Shown here piece after piece: positions 48,123 through 53,496 of a stretch of 64,000 nt of DNA (position 1 is the stretch's first letter; the number at the start of each line of letters is the position of its first letter). Source of the stretch: Gammaproteobacteria bacterium (lineage in GTDB: Bacteria > Pseudomonadota > Gammaproteobacteria > Thiohalomonadales > Thiohalomonadaceae); NCBI GenBank assembly GCA_003252455.1, contig QKED01000013.1, positions 1 through 64,000 on the forward strand. The letters run 5' to 3'. The position numbers and the translations under genes were made by a program. The notes beneath the pieces are model-generated. The model made no database searches and had not been told where the DNA came from. It was given only the letters and a program-made list of their open reading frames with translations.

Positions 48123-48199
48123 GGAGCGGTAGTTCAGTCGGTTAGAATACCGGCCTGTCACGCCGGGGGTCGCGGGTTCGAGTCCCGTCCGCTCCGCCA
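48123..48199 (+). tRNA. tRNA-Asp(GTC)
   Basis: A complete 77-nt tRNA with encoded CCA. The acceptor stem GGAGCGG pairs with CCGCTCC; the anticodon arm is CCGGC-CTGTCAC-GCCGG with anticodon GTC (Asp); the T-loop is GGTTCGAGTC. Confidence 0.97.
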
Positions 48200-48248
48200 C
48201 ATAAACGCAAAAAGGCCCGCTATATGCGGGCCTTTTTGCGTTTATGTG
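48198..48248. terminator. Long perfect bidirectional terminator after tRNA-Asp
   Basis: A 23-bp perfect stem (48198-48220 with 48226-48248) around the loop TATAT, including GGCCCGC/GCGGGCC followed by five T on both strands. It starts at the 3' CCA of the tRNA, so folding and CCA processing compete for two bases. Confidence 0.9.
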
Positions 48249-50998: not shown

Positions 50999-52975
50999 AT
51001 GCACAATCCTTATCGCCTTGTCCGTATCGCCGCGCTGCTGCTGGTCTCCATTCTGCCAGCCCTGACTCAGGCCGCCTCGACCATCGAGGCGCAGCGCGAG
51101 GCCTTCAACGCGGCCAAACGTGCCCTCGATGCGGGCAAGCGCACCGAGTTCCAGCGCCTCAGCGCCGAGCTGCGCGACTACCCCCTCTATCCCTATCTCG
51201 TCTATTGGGACCTCTATAAGCGGATCGGTGAGCAGGATGCCAAGGCCGTCGCCGCCTTTCTCGCCGCGCAGGCCGATACCCCGCTGGCAGAGCCGTTGCG
51301 TGCGGTCTGGCTGCAGAGGCTCGGTAAGGAGCAGCGCTGGGGTGAGTACCTCGACTTCTACACCCAGAGCGATGATGAGGTGCTGCAGTGTTACTACCAG
51401 CGCGCCCTCTATGCCAAGGGGGAGCGGACCCAGGCATTGGAGGGGGCCAAGGGATTGTGGCTCTCTGGAAAGTCGGTGGATAACGCCTGCAATCCGCTGT
51501 TCGACGCCCTGGTCGCTAGTGGTCAGATCACCCGAGAGCTGCGCTGGCAGCGCATCACCTTGGCCATCGACAAGCGCAACTTCAGTCTGGTGAGTTATTT
51601 GGCCAAGGGGCTCGACAGCCACGACCGCGGTTGGGCCGAGCTATGGATCGCCGCACACGAGAAGCCAGCCCTGCTGTTGGAGGATGTGCGTCTGCAGCAG
51701 GAGAGTGAGATGGCCCGTCTCATTGTGGTCAGCGTGCTCGACCGTCTAGCGCGTAGCGACCTGGAGCAGGCGCAGACCCTTTGGGCGCAGATTGCCCCAC
51801 ATCTACCCTTCACCCAGGCGCAGCGAGACACCCTGAACAACCGCTTCGGCCTGGAGCTGGCACTCGATGGCAAGCCGGAGGCGCTCGATTGGTTCAAGCG
51901 AGTGAGCCAAGCCGGGCGTGATGAGAACACCTACACCTGGGCCGTGCGCAGTGCCCTACGTAACCAGGCATGGGCGGCTGGGCTCGAATGGGTTGCGCAG
52001 ATGCCCTCGGACCTGGCCAACGAGCCCGACTGGCTCTATTGGCGCGGGCGACTACTGGAGACGTTAGGGCGTAAGGAGGAGGCGCGGCCCTTCTACCAGC
52101 AGGCGGGACAGCAGCTCGGTTACTACGGTTTCCTCGCCATCGATCGCCTGGGTGAGGAGTATCGTCTCGATAGCCGCCCGATCCAGAGCGATGCCACGCG
52201 CAAGGCGGAGTTGGCACAGCGCCCCTCGTTCCTCCGTGCCCATGAGCTACTCGCCCTGGCGCGCAACTGGGAGGCGCGGCGTGAGTGGTTCCACGCCATT
52301 CGTGGGTTGGATAAGGCGGGACTCATCGCCGCTGGCGCCCTGGCGCGTGAGTGGGGTTGGCACGACCGTGCGTTGGTCACCCTGGCACGTGCCGACTACT
52401 ACGACGACCTGGAGATCCGCTTCCCACTGTTGCACACCGAGCAGATCTTCGACCAGGCCAAGAGCCATGCCATCGACCCTGCCTGGGTGCTTGCCGTGGC
52501 ACGCCAGGAGAGCGCCTTCATCGCCGATGTGCGCTCCCATGCCGGTGCCCTGGGGCTGATGCAGATCATGCCCCAGACCGGACGCATGATCGCCCGTGCC
52601 CTCAACACCCGCTGGCTCGGCAGCAACCAACTGCTCTCGCCGGAGACCAATATCCGCTTTGGCACCTACTACCTGCGTAGCGTGCTCGACGAGCTGGACG
52701 AGAACCCGGTGTTGGCCACTGCCGCCTACAACGCCGGCCCACATCGGGTACGCCGCTGGTACCCGGAGCAGGGTACCCTGCCCGCAGACATCTGGGTGGA
52801 GACGGTGCCCTTCAACGAGACCCGTACCTACCTGCGCCGGGTGTTTGCCTACACGGTCATCTACGATGCCCGCCTCGGGCGTAAGGTGACGCGCCTCAGT
52901 GATCGCATGCCCGAGGTGGGTCGGCAGGCCCCCCTGCTCACGGTCAACGAGGCACGCGGAGAGGGGCGTGGGTGA
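50999..52975 (+). CDS. slt: Soluble lytic murein transglycosylase
   Basis: A 658-residue periplasmic enzyme: signal peptide (ending TQAAS), a large superhelical alpha domain (about 30-450) and a C-terminal SLT domain. The catalytic Glu is in ARQESAFIADVRSHAGALGLMQIMPQTG, and AYNAGPHRVRRW is the second signature. It cleaves the MurNAc-GlcNAc bond of peptidoglycan producing 1,6-anhydro ends. Length matches Slt70. A GacA-like palindrome and a GGA-rich RNA follow directly. Confidence 0.95.
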   Translation: MHNPYRLVRIAALLLVSILPALTQAASTIEAQREAFNAAKRALDAGKRTEFQRLSAELRDYPLYPYLVYWDLYKRIGEQDAKAVAAFLAAQADTPLAEPLRAVWLQRLGKEQRWGEYLDFYTQSDDEVLQCYYQRALYAKGERTQALEGAKGLWLSGKSVDNACNPLFDALVASGQITRELRWQRITLAIDKRNFSLVSYLAKGLDSHDRGWAELWIAAHEKPALLLEDVRLQQESEMARLIVVSVLDRLARSDLEQAQTLWAQIAPHLPFTQAQRDTLNNRFGLELALDGKPEALDWFKRVSQAGRDENTYTWAVRSALRNQAWAAGLEWVAQMPSDLANEPDWLYWRGRLLETLGRKEEARPFYQQAGQQLGYYGFLAIDRLGEEYRLDSRPIQSDATRKAELAQRPSFLRAHELLALARNWEARREWFHAIRGLDKAGLIAAGALAREWGWHDRALVTLARADYYDDLEIRFPLLHTEQIFDQAKSHAIDPAWVLAVARQESAFIADVRSHAGALGLMQIMPQTGRMIARALNTRWLGSNQLLSPETNIRFGTYYLRSVLDELDENPVLATAAYNAGPHRVRRWYPEQGTLPADIWVETVPFNETRTYLRRVFAYTVIYDARLGRKVTRLSDRMPEVGRQAPLLTVNEARGEGRG

Positions 52976-53005: not shown

Positions 53006-53025
53006 ATGTAGTCCATGGACTACAT
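53006..53025. promoter_or_regulatory. 20-bp palindrome resembling a GacA/UvrY upstream activating site
   Basis: ATGTAGTCCATGGACTACAT is a perfect 20-bp palindrome. Its TGTA-N10-TACA layout is the same as the GacA box TGTAAG-N6-CTTACA, though the inner bases differ. It lies about 60 bp before the inferred start of a GGA-rich RNA, where GacA sites sit at rsmY/rsmZ-type genes. Confidence 0.55.
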
Positions 53026-53075
53026 GTCGGAGCTATCTCCTACTACATTCTTTTGTGATCTTGTACCGTGCGTCC

Positions 53076-53304
53076 CCCCCGGCCCTATGCCATCATCTCT
53101 CTCACCAGGAGGGCATTGCTGCAAGGAATCGGGAGCCAGGATGCACCCGGCAGCGCAGGGATGGAATCGGATCGGATGTCCCGCGAGGAAGGCACCTGAC
53201 CACGCCTCTGCCAAGGAGGGTAGTAAGCGGGGTTTGCTCAAGTCATTAAGGTTTTATCCTACATTTAAGGCGGTGAGGGTCTCCTCACCGCCTTTTTCTT
53301 TTCT
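53076..53304 (+). ncRNA. Candidate CsrB/RsmZ-family small RNA
   Basis: No protein gene fits this segment, but it has the parts of a CsrA-sequestering RNA. Ten GGA motifs occur within 110 nt (53108 to 53217), several as AGGA or GGGA; some would lie in loops, for example between GGGAT at 53159 and GTCCC at 53178. A GacA-like palindrome lies upstream (53006-53025), and a strong intrinsic terminator ends it (53267-53304). The 5' end is estimated from a weak TACCGT -10 near 53064. Known RsmY/RsmZ/CsrB RNAs carry 5-20 such motifs and sequester CsrA/RsmA. No csrA gene is in the window. Confidence 0.6.
53267..53304 (+). terminator. Intrinsic terminator of the GGA-rich RNA
   Basis: AAGGCGGTGAGG (53267-53278), loop GTCT, CCTCACCGCCTT (53283-53294), then TTTCTTTT: a 12-bp perfect stem with a T-rich tail. 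It lies about 290 bp after slt, so it more likely ends a separate transcript than slt itself. Confidence 0.9.
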
Positions 53305-53496
53305 ATCCTGTTGCCCAGATACGGGCCGAATGTCTCCCCATTGCATGGTCCCCTCGCCTGCTCAACCATGCTTACATTAAGCAACGCTATTCTTAATCCG
53401 AGTAAGCGCATGCCCACACAATACACACCTCGCGCCCCATGGGGGATCGTCTACGCTTGGTGAAAAGCCTGTCCGTTATCCACCGAGGGGGCTGTT

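Follow-up and report, generated by a model that had tools for sequence, protein, structure and literature searches.

A candidate CsrB/Rsm-type small RNA gene downstream of slt, preceded by a palindrome that departs from the GacA box

Introduction

CsrC and CsrB of E. coli (RF00084 and RF00018; clan CL00106) are intergenic RNAs of ~200-370 nt that contain many GGA motifs, end at an intrinsic terminator and are preceded by a far-upstream palindrome. Published GacA/UvrY sites have the form TGTAAG-N6-CTTACA (PMC4682653, PMC4950607). The E. coli csrC repeat, TGTGAGACATTGCCGATA, is a footprinted UvrY binding site, and in csrB the repeat is followed, 5 bp downstream, by an additional half-site, TGTAGGAGA (PMC4682653). 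GacA sites of P. aeruginosa are located at -75 (rsmY) and -196 (rsmZ), and the same organism makes RsmW, an RsmA-binding RNA encoded behind a protein gene, which lacks a proper GacA box, is presumably a processing product of a 3' UTR and has three of its seven GGA motifs exposed (PMC4950607). Several sponges per genome are common in the CsrB/Rsm class (PMC11882849).

Here we describe a candidate small RNA (sRNA) locus in a 64-kb stretch of DNA, referred to below as the window. It shares with CsrC and CsrB the features given above; however, its GGA motifs are not predicted to lie mostly in hairpin loops, and the core of its palindrome differs from TGTGAGAGATCTCTTACA of csrB (PMC4682653). In size class, GGA number and palindrome spacing (75-90 bp, versus -75 for rsmY) it resembles Pseudomonas RsmY/RsmZ (PMC4950607), whose UAS is TGTAAG-N6-CTTACA whereas the candidate has TGTAGT-N6-ACTACA. 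The absence of a proper GacA box and the position behind a protein gene recall RsmW, although CsrA binding is in the present case a prediction and the palindrome suggests a separate promoter rather than processing from a 3' UTR. Finally, a CsrB-like RNA in a genome of the same family (G010) likewise combines a box, a GGA array and a terminator in an intergenic gap and has a similar sub-threshold Rfam score, but its GacA box is near-canonical, it has about twice as many GGA motifs, it lies beside dnaJ, and there is no detectable sequence similarity between the two.

Results

Layout of the slt-DUF3579 gap

The features of the locus are listed in Table 1. The genes slt and DUF3579, both on the plus strand, are separated by 521 bp, and this gap contains, in 5' to 3' order, a palindrome, a cluster of GGA motifs and an intrinsic terminator. 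A second DUF3579 gene is present in the source genome (G000:C79:53875-54117). A preliminary description of this DNA had placed these three elements in a region without protein gene immediately behind slt, and these points hold: slt ends at 52975, shortly ahead of the palindrome, the palindrome is exact, ten GGA motifs within 110 nt are counted, and the 12-bp terminator is found with its tail. All open reading frames over the candidate stretch are short or run through the terminator; none is gene-like, and the gap contains no credible protein gene. A consensus scan of the gap gave no sigma-70 promoter, and neither a -10 nor a -35 consensus is present; the promoter entered in Table 1 is a weak one picked by eye.

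Table 1. Coordinates of the candidate sRNA locus and its flanking genes (positions in the window)
Feature	Start	End	Strand	Remarks
slt, soluble lytic murein transglycosylase	50999	52975	+	Upstream neighbour; PF01464 2.4e-28, PF14718 1.3e-19
Perfect 20-bp palindrome ATGTAGTCCATGGACTACAT	53006	53025		May bind an activator (GacA/UvrY type); centre 75-90 bp ahead of inferred start
Imperfect inverted repeat TGTCGGAG-CTAT-CTCCTACT	53025	53044		Putative; abuts the palindrome
Weak promoter guess, TTGTAC (53061-53066), 19 bp, TATGCC (53086-53091)	53061	53091	+	By eye; putative
Inferred sRNA transcript, about 205 nt	53098	53304	+	5' end from weak -10 and first GGA; 3' end from terminator
Ten GGA motifs	53108	53217	+	Candidate CsrA-binding sites; 7 of 10 fit A(N)GGA
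Intrinsic terminator AAGGCGGTGAGG-GTCT-CCTCACCGCCTT-TTTCTTTTCT	53267	53294	+	12-bp stem, 4-nt loop, then TTTCTTTTCT
DUF3579 gene	53497	53769	+	Downstream neighbour; PF12112 E 1.3e-29

The GGA cluster and its rarity

The GGA motifs start at positions 53108, 53125, 53132, 53139, 53159, 53163, 53169, 53174, 53187 and 53215. No other place in the window, on either strand, equals this density of 10 per 110 nt, the runner-up having 7, which agrees with the initial remark that it is far above that of the surrounding DNA. Ten GGA motifs were reached in none of 2000 local dinucleotide shuffles. Because a cluster of at least ten turned up somewhere in 8 of 100 shuffled versions of the whole 64 kb, the density taken alone is suggestive only, and we therefore scanned 2.07 Mb, corresponding to 45% of the source genome. 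In 1.06 Mb, both strands included, three places have 10 GGA per 110 nt, and only the slt-side locus has a terminator within 400 nt downstream. When stretches upstream of a terminator were compared over the 2.07 Mb, the slt-side locus was the densest (10 per 110 nt) and had the highest count (12 GGA in 260 nt). The cluster by itself is thus unusual, chance being possible in a GC-rich genome, and it is the conjunction of elements that counts. That palindrome, GGA cluster and terminator came together by accident is unlikely; we attach no probability to this conjunction because the criteria were chosen after the locus had been seen.

The palindrome and its relation to the GacA box

In 2.06 Mb of the genome the sequence at 53006-53025 is the only perfect palindrome of the form TGTA-N10-TACA, out of 15 perfect palindromes of 20 bp, whatever their sequence. 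At two mismatches six more sites resembling it were found, giving 7 in all versus 16 for a reversed control pattern. The palindrome lies ~83 bp ahead of the first GGA, and its spacing of 75-90 bp to the inferred start would fit a GacA site, that of rsmY being at -75.

The GacA box used as reference is the 18-bp sequence TGTAAG-N2-AT-N2-CTTACA (TGTAAGNNATNNCTTACA), which has 14 fixed positions. The palindrome core, TGTAGTCCATGGACTACA, retains the TGTA, the central AT and the TACA of this box, is without its AAG/CTT core and mismatches at 4 of the 14 fixed positions; a search allowing up to three mismatches gave no match at the palindrome. The csrC repeat of E. coli likewise has 4 mismatches, but retains a TGTGAG half. 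Hence, of the GacA-box layout that had been ascribed to the palindrome, the outer and central bases stand and the AAG/CTT core does not, and the box sequence lends no support to the link from GacS/GacA to CsrA that had been drawn through it. Because this core is missing the GacA link is a guess: control of the candidate sRNA by GacA is possible, and another regulator would be a live alternative. The halves of the imperfect repeat abutting the palindrome are more like GacA half-sites than those of the palindrome itself, with a spacing of 4 instead of 2 bases. Elsewhere in the source genome, five near-canonical GacA boxes were found, none with a GGA cluster behind it; the one with the best palindrome (C111:63872) is inside a gene.

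CsrA, GacA and GacS in the source genome

Both csrA and gacA are present. The CsrA gene is located at G000:C75:20575-20730 (93.3 bits, E 4.4e-26), and a GacA/UvrY orthologue at G000:C47:578-1219 scores 301.9 bits, above the curated NCBI cut-off of 280. The start of uvrC was read just past the stop of the latter gene, and gacA-uvrC is the usual gene order. In a protein alignment, for which an E. coli UvrY sequence served only as search query and label, the recognition-helix region of this GacA, LSPKTISTYRYRLFDKL, is close to that of the GacA of G010. A search for GacS/BarA returned many hybrid kinases; the fullest coverage of the model from its start was given by C74:20214-22526, with 477.9 bits, below the cut-off of 890 bits.

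Matches to Rfam models

Nothing in Rfam matches the candidate sRNA stretch at gathering thresholds. A permissive search produced a weak full-length match to the CsrC model (RF00084) at 53108-53305, with 19.3 bits versus a threshold of 61 and an E value of 0.001 for 541 bases or 0.12 for the whole window. No other match to the CsrB clan occurs in the 64 kb, nor does any in three control stretches of 20 kb (60 kb) from the source genome, in which four clusters reach 9-10 GGA per 110 nt. The RNA of G010 provides a positive yardstick: it scores only 18.7 bits in Rfam, to RsmY. A score of ~19 bits would therefore be typical for such an RNA in this lineage, and since that RNA carries a box and also reaches ~19 bits, a sub-threshold score would be compatible with the CsrB class. 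For the CsrB/RsmZ family proposed at the outset, the searches yield a single sub-threshold match, to CsrC. As the threshold for family membership is not reached, we describe the candidate as working like a CsrB-type RNA. When 20 genomes were searched with the models of CsrB and CsrC, no match exceeded the cut-off; the slt-side locus itself is absent from the resulting list, probably lost at the first pass. At another place in the window, 48206-48240, a strong terminator-like stem lies just 3' of a tRNA gene (48123-48196), with a weak Thr_leader match on both strands.

Related genomes

The 20 genomes sampled from the order comprise, besides the source genome, 19 that belong to other genera of one family. 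BLAST of the stretch against 55 further genomes from the order and class gave, besides itself, only a 29-nt chance match. The slt-DUF3579 arrangement was not found in any relative among the 20 genomes, and DUF3579 is not beside slt in the slt loci examined. A protein search with Slt over the relatives' contigs returned only relatives that are 35-39% identical, and the gap downstream of slt in these loci is without a comparable GGA cluster. GGA clusters upstream of DUF3579 in two genomes of the order are inside LysR- and DksA-like genes.

CsrB-like RNAs are nevertheless found in the relatives, conserved neither in sequence nor in position. That of G010 (L093:1501-1833) has the box TGTAAGTAATTCCCTACA, ~20 GGA motifs and a terminator, and is located between a DsrE-like gene and dnaJ, a position without equivalent in the source genome. 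Two more, in other gaps, are real-looking sub-threshold CsrB matches with a terminator. The one in G003 (L044:1480-1750) has 13 GGA per 150 nt; that genome, which is 78% complete, has neither a GacA box of this form nor a GacA match above the cut-off. The one in G026 (L045:1520-1712) has 9 GGA per 150 nt, and the box TGTAATCTATGGCTTACA is present ~190 bp upstream. A further box with a GGA cluster, on L103, proved to lie inside an integrase-like gene.

Predicted structure and a second candidate beside minC

The folding energy of the candidate sRNA is ordinary (z -0.81 versus shuffles). The predicted mean unpaired probability of its GGA motifs is 0.43, with 2 of 10 above 0.5; the corresponding predictions are 0.40-0.63 for GGA-rich coding controls and 0.53-0.81 for the RNAs of the relatives.

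The source genome contains a second CsrB-like candidate, on the minus strand in the gap before minC (G000:C111:139705-139930; L199:19712-19925; L263). It has 7-8 GGA motifs, a 17-bp terminator and a weak, sub-threshold RsmV match of 18.3 bits. Two of its GGA motifs are in the loops of strong hairpins, GGGGCGGGC-GCGGAT-GCCCGCCCC and GGTGC-AGGAG-GCACC, and the motifs are predicted to be better displayed than those of the slt-side candidate.

Discussion

The GGA cluster, the terminator and the presence of csrA make a CsrA-titrating sRNA, as proposed in the preliminary description, the best explanation of the slt-side stretch, and judging from its sequence we consider it probable, short of firm, that this is a gene of the CsrB/Rsm type. 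The gene would stand alone and specify a non-coding RNA of the functional type of CsrB, CsrC and RsmX-Y-Z, with the palindrome as activator site 75-90 bp ahead of the transcription start. The ten GGA motifs would bind several CsrA dimers, and transcription would stop at the terminator; once synthesized, the RNA would draw CsrA off its mRNA targets, so that CsrA control would be relieved or removed. We infer that the stretch is transcribed, and from where, that the RNA binds and titrates CsrA, and that GacA or some other regulator activates it via the palindrome.

Several observations count against this explanation. The palindrome has its four box mismatches although the recognition helix of this GacA resembles that of G010, where the box is near-canonical. 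Also, the GGA motifs are predicted to be no better exposed than in the coding controls, the folding energy is ordinary, the CsrC score stays below its threshold, there is no promoter consensus, and no homologue is present in 55 other genomes. Moreover, the minC-side candidate in the same genome is predicted to display its GGA motifs better.

Some of these points would equally be expected if a GGA-rich spacer in GC-rich DNA had by chance come to lie between the operator palindrome of an unrelated regulator and an ordinary slt terminator. The whole-window shuffles that reach the same GGA density, the ordinary exposure and folding energy, the 15 perfect 20-bp palindromes in 2.06 Mb and the missing homologue all agree with such a coincidence. 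However, the three elements in this order within 290 bp are unique in the sequence scanned, and the one CsrB-clan match of the window falls on precisely this stretch; we regard coincidence as unlikely, and rank it next after the CsrA-titrating sRNA.

Less likely again is that the stretch is the 3' UTR of slt, extending to an slt terminator 291 nt past the stop codon, and that a CsrA sponge without promoter of its own is released from the mRNA. The gene slt is on the same strand, no other plus-strand terminator-like site lies between it and the GGA cluster, a promoter consensus is absent, and RsmW, proposed to derive from PA4570, offers a precedent (PMC4950607). Yet a separate promoter accounts better for a unique palindrome within a 291-nt 3' region, and in G010 and G026 the CsrB-like RNA has a box of its own upstream.

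That the stretch acts in cis on the downstream DUF3579 gene, as its leader or attenuator, is very improbable: the gene is on the same strand, with the terminator 202 nt ahead of its start codon, and a weak L20-leader-like match exists that rests largely on the terminator stem, but the predicted fold contains no alternative antiterminator, and upstream of DUF3579 in relatives there is no non-coding stretch of similar GGA richness, both clusters examined there being coding. A small protein gene can hardly be entertained, for although open frames of 121 codons (53015-53380) and 64 codons (53055-53249) exist, the longest starts within the palindrome and continues across the terminator, and such frames arise by chance at 66% GC.

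If the CsrA-titrating sRNA is real and its palindrome, TGTAGT-N6-ACTACA, is not a GacA box, either another regulator or a GacA of shifted specificity may in this lineage feed the sponge through it, the minC-side RNA then being a second, independently controlled sponge. This extended proposal is doubtful as a whole.

The candidate is a plausible further example, by its sequence features, of the known kind of CsrA sponge, with a switch-on site that would be non-standard. RNAs that antagonize CsrA are poorly conserved in sequence and escape Rfam, and the present comparison suggests that in related genera such RNAs occupy unrelated places, have unrelated sequences and score far under Rfam thresholds. 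For the gammaproteobacterial order sampled by the 20 genomes, most of the circuit can now be proposed: CsrA, GacA, and at least one and perhaps two sponges.
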